Shown here piece after piece: positions 308 to 15,463 of a stretch of 15,463 nt of DNA. The stretch's first letter is position 1, and each line of letters opens with the position of its first letter. Source of the stretch: Thiotrichaceae bacterium (GTDB lineage: Bacteria > Pseudomonadota > Gammaproteobacteria > Thiotrichales > Thiotrichaceae); contig JALVRY010000209.1 of the NCBI GenBank assembly GCA_027024625.1, forward strand, positions 1 to 15,463, in the 5' to 3' direction. A program made the position numbers and the translations under genes. Below the pieces are notes generated by a model, which was given only the letters and a program-made list of their open reading frames with translations, made no database searches and had not been told where the DNA came from.

Positions 308-3076
308 CTACTTTCTTATCAATTTCCGCAATCCAGCCCATAGCCCTGACCGTTGCGGCTCCGCTTTCGCAACTGTCTGGTCTACTGGCTGGCTTGCTCT
401 TTCTTGCACTTGACTTACATGACCTAGAAGAAGGCGGAAACCAAGGTTGTCGTAACGATTATCAGGCGAATCGGGGATACGGTAGGCAGAACGCACGTTC
501 CTGCCGCCGTCGAACCACGAGCCACCACGCAGAACGCGGTAAGAGCCTGTTTTCACCCCTTTCGGATTAGTCGCTGCTTGTTTACCTAAATGTTCTTGCC
601 AAAAATCTTGACACCATTCCCATACATTTCCGTGCATTTCATACAAGCCCCATGAGTTAGGTGGTAAAGATTTAAGTTCTACTGTTTTACGACGGTACAA
701 GCCTTTTTCTCCATCTGCATAAGGATAACTACCATTATAATTAACCTGTTTAGGCGTTATATTCTCCCCAAAAGAAAAGGGTGTTTGTGTGCCTGCTCTA
801 CAGGCATATTCCCATTCCGCTTCATAGGGGAGTCTTAATAGGGCTAAAGACGGTTCTTTTTGTAATTGTTTGATAAAGGCTGTTGCATCCTCCCAACTAA
901 CATTCTCCACAGGTCTATTATCACCTTCACCTTTAAAACTAGCGGGATTTTTGCCTGTCACCGCTTTCCATAAGGCTTGTGATACAGCAGTATCGGCTAA
1001 CCAAAAACCTTGTGTTAAGGTGACTGGGTGCAAGTCTTCATCATAATAACGCCCTGCTTCATTTTCTGGTGAGCCCATTATAAACTGCCCTGCTTCTATC
1101 CAACGAAAGCGTTGTATAATGCCTTTTATGTCGATGTCTTGATAGGCTCCATATTTATCACGTTTGATGTTTTTAGCTAATACGGCATCAGGGAACCAAA
1201 AGCCGCGTTGTTTTTGCCCTTGGCTATTGATTTTTTCTGGATGCCAATAGTAGCGGCTACTGCGATCTCCTAGTCGTGTTTCAATAAATAAGCCGTGCTG
1301 ATTTTGCCCTATATTTTCTGCAAAGCTGGGGCGTTGTATGGCTTTGAGCTGCCATTGGGTGTTTTCTGCGGTGAGCAGGTATTGTTGGCTTTGGGGTAGT
1401 GCTAATTGCCTATCTTTTGTAATAGGTTGCGGTTTAGCTTCGGCTTGTGTTTGCAGGGTAGCAGGTTGTGTGGCGGTGCTGCTAAATGGCAATAATTGCC
1501 CTATTTCGGGAGGGCGACTGCTGATATTGATTTTGCCTGTATGGGTCGTCTGGCTTAGGTAATACGGCACTTGGGCTTCGGCTTTTGTTTTATTATTGTT
1601 TAGTTTTCTTACATCTAACCCATTCGGCAAGTTCGCAGACCAGATGCCTGCTTGTATTTCATCTTCATAGGCAATGCTATAGGCATCATGCAGTAAATCA
1701 CGCGTGGCAGAATCGCCTTGCCATGCGGTTGTTGCGGTCATGGCAATTAGGGTTCGCAGTTGTTGTTTTAGGGCGGCTTGTTGCTCTGGATTGCTGCTTT
1801 GTTGGTAACTTGCCATAATCGACTGGTAATAATCAATCACCTCGCTTGCTTGTGAGCCTGAGAGTGTCGCTTGGTTAATCGCTTCTAGTTGTTTTAAACC
1901 TGTATAGGCGTGTTTGTGGTGATGCTTGACGATCTTCCAAAATTGTTTTTGCTCTTCTACAGGTAAATCTGCAAATTCCTGTTGATAATCTTCCCGATAT
2001 TCTGCCAATAGGCGAATACCTAAATAGCTTTGCTGTATGCGGTGGTCATTCCAGATAATGCCATCCAGTGCGGCATTGCCCCATTGGAAGGCTAAACGTA
2101 GTTTCCGTAATAAACCTGCATCCACTAATACCAATGGGGAGAGATAGGTTAGAGCCGTTTCAATTGCGGTTGCGTCTATCGGCAGTGTAAAGCCCTGCTG
2201 TTTGACTTGGCGAGATAAGCCTGCGGCTAGGCTTTGCGGTTTGGCGAGTCGTAGCCAGTGTTTTTCTTGGGGTGCAGATTGGGCGGGGCTGAGGCTGAGT
2301 ATTTGGCAGCCTTTGTTTTTTAGGGTTTGCAATAGCTCTTGCCAATCCCAATAGCGTTTGTTGCTGTTGTGTTCGTTGAGGTCGGTAAGTAGCAAAACGG
2401 AAGCTCCATTGATGCGGCGATGCCGTTCTAATCGCTCAATATGGCAGGCTTGTTGTGTACCACTTTGCACAAAGGGCATAGTCTCTACACAGTTTTTACC
2501 CAGTAATATTTCAAGCTGTTTGGCGATAACATCAAAGTCATTCCAATAGGGAAACAAGGCAGGGTGTTTGTCAATAATAATGGTGAGTTGCTGTGGCCAA
2601 TGTTTGACTTGTTGTTTGGGAAGTCTGCGAATGGCTTTGGCTTGCGTCAGCTTTTTAACTAGCTTGTTTTGGTCAATATGTTTGCCCGCTTTGTAATAGC
2701 CTAGTGCATTTAATATTAAGGGGAATAAGTTGGCAGATGTAATCATCGGTTCAGGCGAGTCAAAGACATAAGTGCCTGATTGGGCTTTGCTTAAATCCAG
2801 TACCTTTTGTGGGTCGTTTAAATAGTCTTTATTGCTTTCTTCGGGTTCTGCTAGTTCGGTGATGGATTGTATCTTCCAGAATACGGCTTGTAGGCTTTGT
2901 GCTTTGCTGGTGCTTGTGCTGTTTGTAGAGGTAGTGAGGATACTTTCTGGCGTTGTGGATTTTTTTTGGGTGCTGGTATTTTCAGCCACGCTATAGCCTA
3001 GCGTTTCTGCCAAGTCATTGATGTGTTCTTTGGCTTGCTCACTGGCGTGCAGTAAGGCGATGCGTCCCCATGCCAT
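308..3076 (-). CDS. vWA-like / FGE-sulfatase (C-type lectin fold) protein, MoxR-system partner
   Basis: This 922-residue protein has an FGE-sulfatase domain at about residues 655-885. Its landmarks are FRWIEAGQFIMGSP, RPVENVSWEDA, RLPYEAEWEYACRAG, GLYEMHGNVWEWC and RGGSW...GFRL. The N-terminal half has a Rossmann-like pattern at about 160-280 (LTIIIDKH at 164-171, VLLLTDLNEH around D232) that resembles a degenerate vWA domain. A Gln/Thr/Pro-rich linker lies between, and a basic tail follows the domain. The start chosen is the ATG at 3076, one base after the stop of the AAA fragment. An ATG ten codons upstream would overlap that gene. There is no signal peptide, so it is probably cytoplasmic. 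Proteins of this build pair with MoxR AAA ATPases in sensor or conflict-type systems and are frequent DGR targets. A sulfatase-maturing role is unlikely, because the fold here is usually a binding module. Its MoxR partner next door is broken. Confidence 0.85.
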   Translation of the reverse strand: MAWGRIALLHASEQAKEHINDLAETLGYSVAENTSTQKKSTTPESILTTSTNSTSTSKAQSLQAVFWKIQSITELAEPEESNKDYLNDPQKVLDLSKAQSGTYVFDSPEPMITSANLFPLILNALGYYKAGKHIDQNKLVKKLTQAKAIRRLPKQQVKHWPQQLTIIIDKHPALFPYWNDFDVIAKQLEILLGKNCVETMPFVQSGTQQACHIERLERHRRINGASVLLLTDLNEHNSNKRYWDWQELLQTLKNKGCQILSLSPAQSAPQEKHWLRLAKPQSLAAGLSRQVKQQGFTLPIDATAIETALTYLSPLVLVDAGLLRKLRLAFQWGNAALDGIIWNDHRIQQSYLGIRLLAEYREDYQQEFADLPVEEQKQFWKIVKHHHKHAYTGLKQLEAINQATLSGSQASEVIDYYQSIMASYQQSSNPEQQAALKQQLRTLIAMTATTAWQGDSATRDLLHDAYSIAYEDEIQAGIWSANLPNGLDVRKLNNNKTKAEAQVPYYLSQTTHTGKINISSRPPEIGQLLPFSSTATQPATLQTQAEAKPQPITKDRQLALPQSQQYLLTAENTQWQLKAIQRPSFAENIGQNQHGLFIETRLGDRSSRYYWHPEKINSQGQKQRGFWFPDAVLAKNIKRDKYGAYQDIDIKGIIQRFRWIEAGQFIMGSPENEAGRYYDEDLHPVTLTQGFWLADTAVSQALWKAVTGKNPASFKGEGDNRPVENVSWEDATAFIKQLQKEPSLALLRLPYEAEWEYACRAGTQTPFSFGENITPKQVNYNGSYPYADGEKGLYRRKTVELKSLPPNSWGLYEMHGNVWEWCQDFWQEHLGKQAATNPKGVKTGSYRVLRGGSWFDGGRNVRSAYRIPDSPDNRYDNLGFRLLLGHVSQVQERASQPVDQTVAKAEPQRSGLWAGLRKLIRK
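352..373. repeat. GC-rich hairpin downstream of the variable patch
   Basis: GTTGCG at 352-357 pairs with CGCAAC at 368-373 around a 10-base loop. A competing smaller hairpin GCGG/CCGC (355-358 with 361-364) sits inside. It lies in the C-terminal tail codons of the FGE gene, about 60 bp downstream of the variable patch. DGR targets often carry a short GC-rich hairpin just 3' of the variable region, so the position is suggestive only. Confidence 0.35.
437..540 (-). other. candidate DGR variable region in the FGE domain
   Basis: This encodes residues R847-F880 with the frame RGGSW-(variable)-RSAYR-(variable)-PDNR-(variable)-GFRL. In the three variable clusters the codons are TTC GAC GGC GGC, then ATC CCC GAT TCG, then TAC GAC AAC. 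Nine of these eleven end in C, as expected if AAC codons of a template had their adenines randomised. The patch is 61/104 G+C against 35/100 at 661-760 of the same gene. No template repeat or DGR reverse transcriptase is in the window. Confidence 0.5.
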
Positions 3077-3077
3077 G

Positions 3078-3625
3078 TTAGTCTTCCGCTTCTTTTTGAT
3101 AAACAAATTGGCTGATGCTGTCTAAACGGTCTTTTTGCTCGGCTTTGTTGAGTTGCGATAGCGGGCGAAGTAGGTCGAGGTATTCGGCTAAACTTGGGGG
3201 GTAGCGTTTGTGGCTTTTGCGGTCTTTCCAGAGGAGTTCGGCTGCATCGCGGTAAACGTCATCAGTAATGCTATCTGCAAAGTGCAGTTTGCCCCGTTTG
3301 ACGAGCCAATCAATTCGGGATTCGCCTTCGTCCATTTTTAGGGTATGGGTATAACAGCGACGCACTAATGCCGTTGGTAATTCGCGTTCTTCATTGGTGG
3401 TGATAATAATCAATAGGCGTTGTGGGTCGGCTTTGATGCGTTGATTAATATAGGGAACAGTGAACTCTAAATCCCCTAAGGTTTGTAATAAGCCATTGGG
3501 CAGGTCTGGGTCGGCTTTATCGAGTTCATCAATGAGTAACACTACGCCATCTTTGCTTTCATCCCAGCCTGCGGGGGCGTAGGGTTGCATGGCTTGAGCG
3601 GCTTCATTATCGGGCAGACATCGGC
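3078..3625 (-). pseudogene. MoxR-like AAA ATPase, 3' fragment lacking Walker A
   Basis: The frame reads DNEAAQAMQPYAPAGWDES, then Walker B VVLLIDELDKAD, then sensor 1 IIITTNEERELPTALVRRC with its arginines, then an all-helical lid. This is the second half of a MoxR-type AAA ATPase. The family is normally about 300-350 residues, and here only about 180 remain. The P-loop (GxxGxGKT) half is gone. The open frame begins after an in-frame TGA at 3651-3653, and recognisable AAA sequence starts near 3615. The first ATG is at 3590. It ends one base before the FGE gene, the normal operon order for a MoxR chaperone and its vWA/FGE client. Without Walker A it should not bind ATP. The junction with the preceding gene fragment indicates a deletion, not a separate short gene. 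Confidence 0.8.
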
Positions 3626-3838
3626 TGGCACTACAGGAATCGCAGATAGCTCAATATAGTTTAATTTGCCATTATTAGCGGCATAGGCAAGGTAGGCAGA
3701 GACTAGAACGATACACCAATTTTTACACGCACTGCTATTGCTTGCCATGCGGGTGATGATCCCTTGGAACATATCAATATGTTTTAATACGGCTTCATTT
3801 TCGGGCGGTAGAGGGTTTTGGTTTTGTGTCTCGGGCAT
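3542..3838 (-). pseudogene. small membrane protein, 5' fragment running out of frame into AAA sequence
   Basis: The 98-codon frame starts MPETQNQNPLPPENEAVLKH and continues with MFQGIITRMASNS, the TM-like CKNWCIVLVSAYLAYAA and YIELSAIPVV. This matches a common bacterial family of about 150-190 residues that I know only as hypothetical membrane proteins (HxxxxQxIIxRMAxNS, two to three TM helices, then a conserved LDAYYL...ER segment). After residue 68 (about 3635) the frame becomes Pro/Lys-rich nonsense, because it reads the AAA gene in the wrong frame to a stop at 3542. About half of the gene is lost. The start is well supported by AAGGAG at 3846-3851 (minus strand), 7 bases upstream. Confidence 0.72.
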
Positions 3839-4103: not shown

Positions 4104-4340
4104 ATGCAAAACGACTTTATAATCCCGAACGGTAATATTATTAATTCTGCTCAAGCATTAGGTTCATTCGTTCGGGACAAACGGAAAAAAGATCAATTAA
4201 CACAGATTGAGTTAGCTGAGTTGACTGGTGTGGGTGTGCGTTTTTTATCTGAGTTGGAAAACGGCAAGCCTTCTGTGCAATTGGATAAGGTATTACTGGT
4301 CTTAGCAGGCTTAGGCTTAAAGATTGGTATCGCACAATGA
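4104..4340 (+). CDS. hipB: HipB-like antitoxin, HTH transcriptional repressor
   Basis: The 78-residue protein is typical in length for HipB. A Cro/C1-type (XRE) helix-turn-helix spans about residues 18-75: SFVRDKRKKDQLTQIELAEL, then TGVGVRFLSELENGKPSVQL, then a helix DKVLLVLAGLGLKIGI. The GV-x-x-x-x-LSELENGK turn and recognition helix are characteristic of HipB. It should neutralise the downstream HipA kinase and repress its own operon as a dimer, with HipA as co-repressor. The ATG at 4104 follows the predicted start point by about 27 bases. The upstream region to 3910 is open in another frame but lacks any recognisable protein. The stop overlaps the hipA start by 4 bp (ATGA), indicating coupled translation. 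Confidence 0.88.
   Translation: MQNDFIIPNGNIINSAQALGSFVRDKRKKDQLTQIELAELTGVGVRFLSELENGKPSVQLDKVLLVLAGLGLKIGIAQ
4118..4139. promoter_or_regulatory. HipB operator-like site 3, inside hipB
   Basis: AATCCCGAACGGTAATA lies within codons 6-12 of hipB, with CCCGAA at 4124-4129. It could act as a roadblock or help build a multi-dimer repression complex. It also encodes protein (IIPNGN), so both constraints act on these bases. Confidence 0.45.
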
Positions 4341-5593
4341 AAACGTTGTATGTTTCTTATCAAAATAGTCATATCGGTATATTGAGCATTGATGAACAGC
4401 AATTATATCAATTCCAATACAAACAAAGCTGGTTAGATAATGCGAATGCGTTTGCTCTATCATGTTCATTGCCCTTGCAGAAAGCTCCTTTTGAGCATCG
4501 CTTTTCTTATGCTTTTTTCTCGAACTTAATACCTGAGGGGGACTTACGCTATAAGATTGCTCATTTACTTGGTATATCAGAAGAGAATGACTTTGCTTTT
4601 TTAGAGGCAATTGGTGGAGAAATTGCGGGGGCAATTAGTTTATCGACATCTGTAATTACGCAAGCTGATTTATCGACTAATATACAACGCAATTTATCAT
4701 CAGAAGAATTGGCTTTTATTGTTGAACAACTAGATTCTCAGCCTTTTTTGGTGAATGAAGAAGGTTTGCGACTTTCTCTGGCAGGGGCACAAAACAAGCT
4801 GCCAATTATTTATCAGGATCAGGTATTTGCTTTGCCACTAGGGGGAACAGCTTCTAGCCATATTTTAAAGCCAGACCCACAAAGAAAAAGCATTCCTAAA
4901 CTTGCCGTAAACGAGGCTTTTTGTATGACATTAGCCAAACGATGCCGATTAGAGTCTGCTAGTGTTGAGCTGATTGATATTGCAGATCGCCATTGTGTTT
5001 TAGTGCAACGCTATGATCGCAAAAATAAGCAACGCTTGCATCAAGAGGATTTTTGCCAAGCGATGGGCATTGTTTCCTTTAATAAATACGAGAGTGAAGG
5101 CGGTCCTTCTTTTGCAGACTGTGCAAAGCTAATTAGCCTTTATAGCTCACGCCCTGCGGCTGATAAGAAGCGATTATTGCAATGGACGCTGTTCAATTAC
5201 CTTATTGGTAATGCCGATGCACATGGCAAAAATCTATCATTTTTACAGCAACCTGAACGTGTTATCAGCCCATTTTATGATTTACTTTCAACCGCCATTT
5301 ACCCTGAACTCAATCAACGAATGAGTATGAAAGTTGGTGGCGAAAATCGACCAAAATGGATAATGAAAAGGCACTGGGAAAAATACTGTGACGTGACTCA
5401 GATTCCTTTTAGAATGCTACAACGTGAGGCTAGCAGCCTTATTCGATTGATGACTAAGGAGGCTGATTTATTAGCCGAAGAGACTGTCTTTTTGGAACAT
5501 AACGATGTAACGAGTCAGATAAAAAGCATAATTCAAGAAAGGCAGAGTTGGTTAACTTTACGACTTAAAGCTAATATCAAAAAAGGTGCATAA
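4337..5593 (+). CDS. hipA: HipA-like serine/threonine kinase toxin
   Basis: This 418-residue protein is full length for HipA (about 400-440) and includes the N-terminal subdomain (residues 1-105) that is split off in HipBST systems. Recognisable elements are LSLAGAQNKLP at 146-156, whose S147 matches the autophosphorylated loop serine (Ser150) of E. coli HipA; SHILKPD with K178; VLVQRYDR at 221-228; HQEDFCQAMG with KYESEGGP at 235-256; GNADAHGKN with catalytic D294; and FYDL with metal-binding D315. All kinase residues are present, so it looks active. In E. coli HipA phosphorylates glutamyl-tRNA synthetase and triggers the stringent response. The target here is inferred, not shown. It is translationally coupled to hipB. 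The operon sits directly upstream of mucD, where other gammaproteobacteria may carry algU-mucABC. Confidence 0.92.
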   Translation: MKTLYVSYQNSHIGILSIDEQQLYQFQYKQSWLDNANAFALSCSLPLQKAPFEHRFSYAFFSNLIPEGDLRYKIAHLLGISEENDFAFLEAIGGEIAGAISLSTSVITQADLSTNIQRNLSSEELAFIVEQLDSQPFLVNEEGLRLSLAGAQNKLPIIYQDQVFALPLGGTASSHILKPDPQRKSIPKLAVNEAFCMTLAKRCRLESASVELIDIADRHCVLVQRYDRKNKQRLHQEDFCQAMGIVSFNKYESEGGPSFADCAKLISLYSSRPAADKKRLLQWTLFNYLIGNADAHGKNLSFLQQPERVISPFYDLLSTAIYPELNQRMSMKVGGENRPKWIMKRHWEKYCDVTQIPFRMLQREASSLIRLMTKEADLLAEETVFLEHNDVTSQIKSIIQERQSWLTLRLKANIKKGA

Positions 5594-12680: not shown

Positions 12681-15463
12681 ATGAAAGTAAAAAATAAGGA
12701 TGTTGATCTATTTGATAAATTAGATACAAATTTGTATTTATCACTTGATGAAAAAAAGAATTTAAAAGCAAGGCTAGATTATTTAGATGAAAAATTGTCC
12801 GCTCGTGAAAAACGAATTCAGGAGTTGACGGATAAGTTACTTGAGAAAGATGGTCATATTCATAAGCGTGACAAAAGCCTAGAAGAACGCGATAAAAAAT
12901 ATCAAAACCTATTTAACATGCTCGGAGAAAAAGAGAAAATCTTAACAGAGCAAAGCAAACAATCTTTCGACAAAGACAAAATGCTTAAGCTACGAGATGA
13001 GCATTTGCTTACAAAAGAAAAAGCCTTAGAAAAACGTGATGCATTGTTACTCGAGAGAGAAGGACGATTACGTGACTTAGAAAGCAATATAATCCGATAT
13101 GAAAAATTACTGCAAGAGAAAGAATTACAGCTACAAAGTCATCATCGTTCATTAGAAGACAAAGACCGCCTTCTACAAAAACAAAACCAAACAGCCCTGC
13201 AAAAAGATAAATTACTACGCAGTAAAGATGAAGAAGCTAACCACAAAGATCGTCTTTTAAATGAAAGAGAAGCTTTATTACAAAGCCGACATCATGCAAC
13301 CTTAACACAAGAACGTTTACTAAAAGAAAGAGATGAACAACTAACTAGACGCGACCAACAAATCGATCAACGTGACTTGAGAATCACGCAAGCAAATATC
13401 CATAGTTCCGAACTTGAAACCCAACTAAGAGAAAAAAACAAACAAATTCAAGCAAAGGATGAGCAGGTAAAGAAGAAAGAACTCAGCATTGAAAATAAAG
13501 ATAAACTGATCGAACAACGTGATGCAAAAATATCTGAGCAAGATCGCCATTTATCTGAACGAGATAATTCAATTAGAGCCAGTGATGCAGCAATTCAAAA
13601 GCGTGATGCAACTATCTTACAAAAAGATGGCGTAATTAAGCAGCGTGATGCCTATATCACAGAAAAAGATAAACAATCATTAGATTTTCTTAGTTCGATC
13701 GAAAAGCTAGATATACAGCTAGAAGAACGAGATAAAAGCTTAAAGGAACGTGATAAGAAAATCACAGAGCGAGATGTTCGTATTCAAGTCACGGATGAAG
13801 AAGTGCGTAAGCGTGATTCTCAGATTGCCCATCGTGATAACTCCCTCAAGGAACGTGATGCCCAACTATCTGAACGTGATATCAGAATTAAAGAGCGAGA
13901 TACAACAATTCGCTCACGTGATCAACGGATTAATACACAAGATTTACAATTACGTGAACGTGATAAGCAAATTCAACTACGTGATAATCAGATTCAAACC
14001 CGTGAAGAGACCCTCAGTGATAGAGATCGTCAAATAAAGCACCGCGATGGCAGTATAGATAAGCTAAACCAGCAAATTCAGTCACGCGATTCTGAATTAC
14101 AAGCAAGGGATAACCAGCTAGCTGAACGGGATCGTATTATTCAAAAGCGTGACTTACATTTGCAAGAGCGTGATTCACAAATAAAACAACGTGATAATGA
14201 AATCCAGACCCGTGATAATCGTATCTCTGAACAGGATCGTTTAATTCAAGCCCGCGATGCTTCTTTAGAAGAACGTGAAGCACAACTACAGAAGCGTGAT
14301 GAGAATATCGCTAAACGTGATACACACATTCATGAACGCGATAATGAAATAGCACGACGTGACCAAGTCATTCATGAACGTGAAACTACAATCCAGCAAC
14401 GTGACGAGTCGCTACAAAAATCATCAAAACGGTTGCGAGAGAAAGAAGAAGTCATCAAAGAAAAAGATGATGAGCTGCATAAACGTAACCTGCAATTAGA
14501 ATCAAAAGATGCCGTACTTATTGAACGAGATCGCAGTATTAGTGATCGTGATAACAATCTACACAAACGCGATGAGAGTATTGCAGAACGCGACCAACGT
14601 ATTGAAGCACAAGAAAAGTCACTGCAAAAACGTGATTATCAGTTGGAACAGCGTGATATTCAACTCAACGATCGTGAAACACATATTAAATCACAGGAAG
14701 AGCAGCTACAAATTCGCGATAATGAAATCCAAAATCGTGATAGCAAAATTCAAGAGCGAGATACATCTTTAGCAAAACGTGATGAGCAAATTCAGCAACG
14801 CGATCAAAAAATTCAAGAACGAGATGAAAGCTTGAATAACCGTGATCTCTCGCTAAAAGAACGCGATCAAAAACTCTCTGAACGAGATAGAAGTTTACTC
14901 GAAAGAGATCAGCAAATTGCTAGTCGTGATGACAGCATTGCACAGCGTGATAATAGTTTGCGTGATAGAGATGAACAATTAAAAGAACGCGACTCCTTAT
15001 TGCAAAAGCGAGACAAAAGCCTACAAGAGCGTGATTTGCAAATTAAAGAACGTGATCAACACACTGCTAAATTACAGAAACAGATTGAAAATCGTGATAA
15101 CAAAATAACCCAACGAGATCAACAGCTACAAATTCGTGATGATACTGTAAAAGCACGTGATGTGCAGTTGAGTGAGAAGGAAGAAGTCCTCCAAGACCGT
15201 GAAACAACCATTGCAAATCGTGATGGACAGATTCATCTACGTAATATTCAATTGCAAGAAAAAGAGCGAACCATCGCCGAACGAGATCAGCATATCCTAA
15301 TGCGTGATGCTGAACTGGTAGAGCGTGAGACACAGATTCAAAATCGTGATCAGCAAATTCTTGAGCGTGATTCTCAAATTAAAGAACGCGATGCTCAATT
15401 GCAAGTGCGAGATAATGTGATCAAAGACCGTGATCTACTTATCAAAGAAAAAGAAAGTGTTAT
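12681..15463 (+). CDS. giant RD-heptad coiled-coil protein, 3' end outside window
   Basis: The frame has no stop for 927 codons and continues past the window. It begins at the only ATG after an in-frame TGA at 12660. A 34-residue N-terminal head (MKVKNKDVDLFDKLD...) is followed from residue 35 by 127 consecutive heptads with no insertion or deletion. The pattern is R-D-x-x-[I/L]-x-x, and 72 of the 127 units start with RD. Units with Leu at position 1 set the register: position 5 is a core a, position 1 is d, so most d positions carry Arg or Lys. Gln, Glu, Lys and Ser fill the rest. There are no Cys, Pro or TM stretches and no signal peptide, so it is a cytoplasmic or secreted-without-signal rod of about 132 nm (889 residues at 0.1485 nm). 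No Walker motif is present, so it is not an SMC protein. A cytoskeletal or scaffold role is a guess. Family unknown. Confidence 0.9.
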   Translation, partial: MKVKNKDVDLFDKLDTNLYLSLDEKKNLKARLDYLDEKLSAREKRIQELTDKLLEKDGHIHKRDKSLEERDKKYQNLFNMLGEKEKILTEQSKQSFDKDKMLKLRDEHLLTKEKALEKRDALLLEREGRLRDLESNIIRYEKLLQEKELQLQSHHRSLEDKDRLLQKQNQTALQKDKLLRSKDEEANHKDRLLNEREALLQSRHHATLTQERLLKERDEQLTRRDQQIDQRDLRITQANIHSSELETQLREKNKQIQAKDEQVKKKELSIENKDKLIEQRDAKISEQDRHLSERDNSIRASDAAIQKRDATILQKDGVIKQRDAYITEKDKQSLDFLSSIEKLDIQLEERDKSLKERDKKITERDVRIQVTDEEVRKRDSQIAHRDNSLKERDAQLSERDIRIKERDTTIRSRDQRINTQDLQLRERDKQIQLRDNQIQTREETLSDRDRQIKHRDGSIDKLNQQIQSRDSELQARDNQLAERDRIIQKRDLHLQERDSQIKQRDNEIQTRDNRISEQDRLIQARDASLEEREAQLQKRDENIAKRDTHIHERDNEIARRDQVIHERETTIQQRDESLQKSSKRLREKEEVIKEKDDELHKRNLQLESKDAVLIERDRSISDRDNNLHKRDESIAERDQRIEAQEKSLQKRDYQLEQRDIQLNDRETHIKSQEEQLQIRDNEIQNRDSKIQERDTSLAKRDEQIQQRDQKIQERDESLNNRDLSLKERDQKLSERDRSLLERDQQIASRDDSIAQRDNSLRDRDEQLKERDSLLQKRDKSLQERDLQIKERDQHTAKLQKQIENRDNKITQRDQQLQIRDDTVKARDVQLSEKEEVLQDRETTIANRDGQIHLRNIQLQEKERTIAERDQHILMRDAELVERETQIQNRDQQILERDSQIKERDAQLQVRDNVIKDRDLLIKEKESV
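12783..15461 (+). repeat. 127-unit diverged 21-bp tandem repeat (heptad-coding)
   Basis: Units begin every 21 bases from 12783. The most uniform stretch is 14715-15071, with seventeen RD units in a row. Arg-Asp is written variously as CGTGAT, CGCGAT or CGAGAT, so units differ at the DNA level while the protein pattern holds. The first 35 units are more degenerate (KD, KE, LE and QE openings). Confidence 0.9.

Follow-up and report, generated by a model that had tools for sequence, protein, structure and literature searches.

A heptad rod in a single register with a predicted C-terminal membrane anchor in the Thiotrichaceae: a candidate spacer or tether

Golgins are long rod-shaped tethers that attach to a membrane at one end and, in the passages of PMC5082667 drawn on here, their coiled coils contain numerous short breaks; the plant proteins PICC and PICL appear in the cited part of PMC3581476 as long coiled coils with a C-terminal transmembrane segment, and the bacterial coiled-coil rod crescentin, which lies near the membrane, is given in the relevant section of PMC10873595 a rod of some 364 residues, a stutter and a membrane localisation that depends on its first 27 residues. 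Here we describe a protein that shares something with each of them. It is encoded at the end of a stretch of 15,463 nucleotides from a Thiotrichaceae bacterium, a relative of the sulfur-oxidising Thiothrix (GenBank assembly GCA_027024625.1, contig JALVRY010000209.1; 'the window' below), which is the whole of contig C209 in a draft assembly (2.6 Mb, 490 contigs; completeness 83%, contamination 6.6%), and we call the family to which it belongs family A. Like the golgins and PICC/PICL it combines a long coiled-coil rod with a predicted membrane attachment at one end, and like crescentin it is bacterial. However, its rod keeps to one register, and we found no sequence match to the golgins, whose GTPase link has no known counterpart in family A; and whereas the crescentin rod is short and stuttered, that of family A runs to ~950 amino acids (aa) without a stutter and has its putative anchor at the C-terminus.

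The open reading frame (ORF) begins with an ATG at position 12,681, 231 bp downstream of the end of era, and meets no stop up to the window edge at 15,463. From residue 35 to that edge it encodes 893 residues, that is, 127 full heptads (889 residues) and four more, and heptad position 5 is isoleucine, leucine or valine in 119 of the 127, as against a maximum of 45 and a mean of 32.4 in 2000 shuffles of the residues. The motif [RK][DE]xx[ILV] matches 96 of these heptads and RDxx[ILV] 70 of them, and there is no proline in the rod, either here or in any of the 21 distinct genes compared below. When the preferred phase was followed in 56-residue segments, it was constant along the protein at a first setting; at another offset one segment in 63 (residues 161-216) preferred a neighbouring phase, with identical register on either side, and this is a locally weak stretch, not a register shift. 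A preliminary description of this DNA had claimed a single unbroken register of 127 x 7 residues with neither stutter nor hinge, and the register and the lack of a stutter both stand, there being no net shift; the hinge is another matter, to which we return with the core defects. Recent expansion of a repeat was rejected as the origin of the regularity, since the DNA copies of 30-37 nt have diverged (64-85% similarity to the reference copies) and tandem-repeat scores are low (56-66).

The preliminary description had also proposed extending the contig to find the stop and any C-terminal domain, and a second contig, C273, has supplied the stop and the C-terminus. A search of the assembly with the last 247 bases of the window found the full 127-bp overlap on C273 only, the two other matches being short diverged pieces of rod, and on C273 the frame continues for 90 more residues, into SQVCFIKGAAAGLLSAMVLFWLIYTPL, and then stops, so that the whole rod has ~136 heptads with the register kept to about residue 986 and the protein ends in a single hydrophobic segment. 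An assembly artefact was rejected: the overlap is exact, it occurs in full at two contig ends only, and the head (C209) and tail (C273) align with opposite ends of one orthologue family. Contamination was rejected as well. The era gene of C209 shares 85-87% identity with its counterparts in the congeners G002 and G001, as against 68% or less with those of other genera, and rpoH, which begins on C273 127 bp after the family A stop, is 88% identical to that of G001, 82% to that of G002 and at most 73% elsewhere, from which it follows that the two contigs belong to the same organism. Most probably C209 and C273 adjoin.

How far this rod is a family trait can be judged from its orthologues. Full-length genes of 700-800 aa plus that of the window came to 26, or 23 once identical ones were removed, and two duplicates that start two residues later were then dropped to leave 21 distinct genes; broken or open genes (L030, L031 and L032) and an aberrant one (L123) were left out, and a recount on 21 of some figures first obtained on 23 rows shifted none by more than half a percentage point. 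Measured from the aligned start, 16 of the 21 are 774 aa long, and the others are those of Thiolinea (772), L120 (765), L110 (764), Thiofilum (760, counted from one residue past its start) and the window (1,017); several genes have further in-frame starts upstream. From the motif EKDGH to the motif RDRQxDK there are 673 residues (96 x 7 + 1) in 17 genes, 666 (95 x 7 + 1) in Thiofilum and L120, and 918 (131 x 7 + 1) in the window protein, L110 having no EKDGH motif and hence no valid anchor distance. All 245 extra residues of the window protein, 35 x 7, fall after residue 550. One phase runs along the rod in 19 of the 21 genes, the exceptions being the window protein, with its one weak stretch, and L110, in which the change is real; L110 (genome G067) is a divergent A orthologue with a three-residue register change near the N-terminus, the sole rod indel among the 21 genes that is not made of whole heptads. 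At a rise of 0.1485 nm per residue, the rod would measure ~140 nm here and ~105 nm in the 774-aa orthologues. At the ~1 nm per heptad quoted in the cited portion of PMC5082667, the figures would be about 136 and about 102 nm. Rod length is thus nearly constant, the 35 additional heptads of the window protein apart, while sequence diverges (the window protein is 38.4-45.5% identical to the other full-length members), a combination that the same portion of PMC5082667 ties to spacers.

The hydropathy of the 21 genes is equally uniform. In every one of them the best 19-residue Kyte-Doolittle stretch (1.65-2.66) stops within 0-7 residues of the C-terminus, stretches that start over 80 residues before the end reach 0.61 at most, and no N-terminal signal or second hydrophobic segment was seen. 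One hydrophobic segment at the extreme C-terminus is the layout of a tail-anchored membrane protein and, as far as a prediction from sequence goes, points to a membrane-attached rod, where the preliminary description, made without the part on C273, had speculated about a specialised or pH/ion-sensitive filament. Two Escherichia coli proteins, DjlC and Flk, invite comparison, and to our knowledge neither is a 1,000-residue heptad rod. Each has a single C-terminal anchor according to the part of PMC6794478 used here, as family A appears to have.

The preliminary description could name no family for this protein, and scans of Pfam, NCBIfam and PADLOC likewise gave none that explains it. SMC/Rad50 proteins, marked by an ATPase head and a hinge, were rejected on a score of 35.2 bits for SMC_prok_B (cut-off 567.35), restricted to the coil region, and on the lack of an ATPase domain in the Pfam scan; RNase Y, whose N-terminal coil is followed by KH and HD catalytic domains, was rejected because RNase_Y_N (96.6 against 32 bits) matches coil only (495-559) and the RNase_Y equivalog reaches 41.5 against 454.35; and a GAGA-binding-like protein (PF06217, GAGA_bind) was rejected because the 80.1 bits (threshold 26.6) belong to the whole protein and no single stretch passes. 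We put the RNase_Y_N and GAGA_bind matches down to coil composition. A trimeric autotransporter adhesin, which would have a signal peptide and a YadA-type membrane anchor, was rejected too, with no such Pfam match in the window or C273 part and no N-terminal hydrophobic segment. Similar RDxxI heptads do occur in WbdD-type rulers and in glycosyl- and methyltransferases, also on contig C241 (L004) of the source genome, but these have catalytic domains, of which none was found in family A; WbdD reportedly acts as a coiled-coil ruler. Stretches of such heptads were also noticed in sulfotransferase-like proteins, as in glycosyltransferases and methyltransferases, of diverse bacteria.

The chemistry of the heptad is unusual for a coiled-coil core. 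When the heptads of the 21 genes are pooled, 96.8% have a hydrophobic residue at position 5, 78.8% Arg or Lys at position 1 and 84.6% Asp or Glu at position 2; where position 1 departs from Arg/Lys it is hydrophobic in 66% of cases, as against 11% where position 2 departs from Asp/Glu, and this pattern of substitution favours position 5 as a, position 1 as d and position 2 as e. The core originally proposed, with a hydrophobic residue at a, Arg or Lys at d and an acidic residue after it, fits that pattern; counting against position 1 as d is its plain hydrophobic share of 14.0%, not above those of positions 3 and 4 (12.9 and 16.0%). In five pairs drawn from six Thiothrix-group genes, the ratio of nonsynonymous to synonymous differences per site (pN/pS) in the rod is 0.07-0.21; in every pair pN is lowest at positions 1 and 2 (0.004-0.042), whereas position 4 shows 0.033-0.156 and position 5 shows 0.080-0.194. 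The Arg-Asp pair evolves more slowly than the hydrophobic position 5, where the changes are presumably exchanges among Ile, Leu and Val.

On strand number the sequence profiles lean, as a weak hint, towards three. Against solved structures, two family A profiles that have rows in common gave seven (A1, E values 0.013-0.45) and six matches (A4, 0.021-0.61, one a receptor peptide), and a profile of the paralogue B introduced below gave seven (0.036-0.68), six of which are designed constructs with three chains per entry, all of these matches being sub-threshold; most of the remainder we take to be trimers or three-helix bundles. The trimeric adhesin SadA, reovirus sigma-1, the tail needle gp26 and TRAF3 are among the best of the seven at E 0.013-0.45, none of them significant, and family A has no adhesin or viral domains. 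All four are three-stranded. The higher-order assembly that the preliminary description had suggested is therefore hinted at by mainly three-stranded matches, and by none at a significant level. A profile of the head gave 15 mixed matches to solved structures (the best, at E 0.0078, being a chain called H12), and a single-sequence search of them with the window protein returned nothing at 0.001; at 10, L006 and L016 returned nothing and the window protein two weak matches.

Position 5 lacks Ile, Leu or Val in eight heptads of the window, at residues 70, 91, 168, 182, 203, 238, 329 and 791. Because the heptads at 203 and 329 are defective in the orthologues as well, with T and G at position 5 in the consensus of nine representatives, the claimed absence of a hinge is not established. 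AlphaFold2 (AF2) monomer models predict helices interrupted at 177-192, 331-353 and 561-565 in the T. caldifontis protein (predicted template-modelling score, pTM, 0.22; mean predicted local distance difference test, pLDDT, 71) and at 180-204, 331-354, 581-627 and 806-840 in the window part (pTM 0.23, mean pLDDT 69). The two models have alignment rows in common and so are not independent, and the breaks at 581-627 and 806-840 lie where other rows have gaps; with that caveat the predicted breaks hint at bends.

Where is family A found? A profile of the first 85 residues was applied, via two peptide patterns, to a collection of 84,980 species genomes and gave 14 loci (relatives with neither pattern are missed), in Thiothrix species, Thiolinea disciformis, Thiofilum flexile, uncultured Thiotrichaceae and one 'Gammaproteobacteria' record; full-length orthologues are present in Thiothrix, Thiolinea and Thiofilum. 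Among 63 genomes of the same taxonomic family, which include T. caldifontis (G003), Thiolinea (G018), Thiofilum (G005) and T. eikelboomii (G059), the A head is present at E < 1e-15 in 25, namely 16 of 16 in genus g2, seven of nine in g6, the one in g4 and one of three in g1, which is the source genome; G062 of g6 has the tail end of A with a diverged start, which makes 26, and A was not found in any of the 34 genomes of g3, g5, g7 and g8. In a class-wide sample of 369 genomes three match at 1e-6, all from the same family as the source. The congeners G001 and G002, also of g1, have other genes at the era and rpoH loci, with a contig end close in two of the four. A tree of 18 rows joins the window protein to L110 (support 54/55), both on long branches, and the window gene may be old, with loss in the congeners, or may have been gained. 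A large protein database (the 7987 candidates with most words in common) yielded other coil proteins and no orthologue, which marks the limit of that search and not an absence. A phage or plasmid origin was rejected, with no match in 50,697 phage records and seven matching plasmid records, all at transferase genes; one orthologue record, from T. fructosivorans, is titled a plasmid contig. Interrupted frames, which could reflect sequencing error or decay, were seen in the A-family genes of L030/L059 and L142 (T. singaporensis), with B interrupted too in L142, and of L031/L121. No published description turned up in the literature searched and, as far as these searches show, the family is undescribed.

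Family A has a paralogue, B. Its head (EKIxxNRFLTxxDR) is related to that of A, its last heptads resemble those of A, and the Thiothrix versions of B stop where the anchor of A would begin. B heads are present at 1e-8 in 21 of the 63 genomes: 20 have A and B, six have A only (G005, G064, G069, G074, G075 and G076), one has B only (G060, 67% complete) and 36 have neither, G005 and G069 having B-like rods with no head match. The source genome has both and its two congeners neither, which is the one informative extra case; its B lies on C393, cut off by the contig end, with the tail outside the assembled part. B rods of other genera (those of g6, and L128 of g2) shift phase in their second half, and strict register is a trait of A and of most Thiothrix B. 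Two ORFs of 142 and 147 aa adjoin the source-genome B (L002:1097-1959, C393) and look to us like an antitoxin and a PIN-type toxin.

What, then, might such a rod do? A C-tail-anchored inner-membrane rod that serves as a fixed-length spacer or tether would be in keeping with the near-constant length, the divergent sequence, the predicted anchor at one end of the molecule and the conserved head at its opposite end, and to this reading we give roughly even chances. The rod would be cytoplasmic, a parallel coiled coil of two or three strands anchored by its tail at the inner membrane and standing ~140 nm off it here and ~105 nm in the 774-aa orthologues; the Arg(d)-Asp(e) ladder probably fixes both the register and the number of strands, the conserved N-terminal head would bind a target, the rod may bend or offer a docking site at the defect heptads near 203 and 329, and the soluble, tail-less B is a likely partner or competitor of A. 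A more specific version, which we regard as unlikely, would make this a bacterial counterpart of the golgins: a three-stranded rod on the inner membrane, its core alternating hydrophobic layers with an Arg-Asp ladder under the stronger selection, which together with its soluble paralogue holds a target ~105 nm (140 nm here) off the membrane. Several observations weigh against such a role. With 35 heptads more than the 774-aa orthologues, the window protein shows that the length is not universal; a low indel rate could also keep length constant, and coiled-coil lengths are conserved on average in general, as stated in the cited part of PMC5082667. In addition, there is no homologue of known function, A is absent from the two congeners and is therefore dispensable in that genus, shared ancestry confounds the co-occurrence of A and B and explains much of it, and the AF2 monomers have pTM values of 0.22-0.23 with predicted helix breaks.

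A membrane-associated cytoskeletal filament is a doubtful alternative: rods would pack laterally or end to end beneath the inner membrane, much like crescentin, the anchor merely holding the filament. Long rod and membrane anchor would both suit it, and the seven-residue charged stripes could order lateral packing. The genera that carry family A are known for filamentous cells. However, intermediate-filament proteins and crescentin have a stutter, as described in the relevant part of PMC10873595, whereas here one phase persists in 19 of the 21 genes, no net shift occurs in the window protein and L110 alone changes register; nor is there any family match to those proteins. It is also conceivable, and in our view very unlikely, that the protein is a single long alpha-helix or a disordered low-complexity repeat, kept by repeat bias alone and assembling into no coiled coil. 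There is but one hydrophobic residue per heptad, AF2 confidence is modest, and coiled-coil predictions are often wrong, according to the portion of PMC10386293 cited; the near-invariant hydrophobic position 5, the strong purifying selection and a register maintained across indels all speak against it.

The neighbourhood raises the idea of a scaffold for sequestration or signalling linked to RpoH, the heat-shock sigma factor. Outside the source genome, 20 genomes have a B head, and in 19 of them B and rpoH lie head to head (G060, the twentieth, yielded no rpoH); A of the source genome lies directly upstream of rpoH. In seven orthologue genomes (L006-L012), however, A is on a different contig from rpoH or ~350 kb distant, and a neighbourhood by itself says little, so that we hold this very improbable indeed. 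Least credible to us is a sulfur-globule or globule-positioning protein. In the account of PMC10386293 as far as it is cited here, Thiothrix and Thiolinea do store sulfur, and SgpD of the sulfur bacterium Allochromatium vinosum, a globule-associated structural protein, may form a coiled coil, but the same account gives SgpD, a secreted protein, an N-terminal signal peptide and places globules in the periplasm as a rule, and A has no N-terminal hydrophobic segment. Moreover, dsrA, our stand-in for sulfur metabolism, is present in 24 of the 36 genomes with neither A nor B and in 21 of the 26 with A, and is missing from the A-bearing G061, G063, G064, G065 and the source genome, several of them incomplete; the link to sulfur metabolism is weakened because the distribution of dsrA does not track A.

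Table 1. Features of the rod gene in the window (positions in the window; residues numbered from the ATG)
Feature	Position	Strand	Remarks
Family A rod coding sequence	12681..15463	+	first 927 codons and 2 bases; rest on C273 (L003:128-398); total 1,017 aa
N-terminal head	12681..12782	+	residues 1-34; a short helix, a turn and a further helix predicted (low-confidence AF2); orthologue alignments show the KLDxNxxL core to be conserved
Heptad rod	12783..15463	+	residues 35 to edge, on to ~residue 986 on C273; R/K-D/E-x-x-I/L/V-x-x
Residues 1-550	12681..14330	+	gap-free against 774-aa orthologues; deletions only in Thiofilum (7+7), L110 (7+3) and L120 (7), besides 2-residue start differences
Conserved core defect 1	13287..13307	+	heptad at residue 203; no hydrophobic residue at position 5, either here or in the consensus of the orthologues
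Conserved core defect 2 and Leu/Phe-at-d cluster	13665..13727	+	residues 329-349; helix break predicted in both AF2 models
Region with 35 extra heptads	14331..15164	+	residues 551-828; 51+82+112 = 245 residues against 774-aa orthologues; placement inside arbitrary
Overlap with start of C273	15337..15463	+	127 bp, exact; in full only at those two contig ends of the assembly

Elsewhere in the window, positions 308-3838 of the minus strand hold an FGE-sulfatase-domain protein beside a short AAA ATPase, which matches the second half of the AAA_5 profile only, and a small ORF that matches PDC-M50A in PADLOC; the whole looks like a rearranged or truncated operon. A HipA-type protein with HipA_C and Couple_hipA domains is encoded at 4337-5593. 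On C273, the minus strand (L129:1674-3692) encodes a 672-aa protein with an N-terminal GYDxxGYDxxGY repeat array, followed by what we take to be a heme-peroxidase domain.

As a putative fixed-length rod on the inner membrane, family A may offer a natural system in which to ask whether bacteria employ long membrane-anchored tethers, and it also bears on how strand number is chosen, and register kept over 100 nm, in a coiled coil that has a charged residue in one of two core positions.

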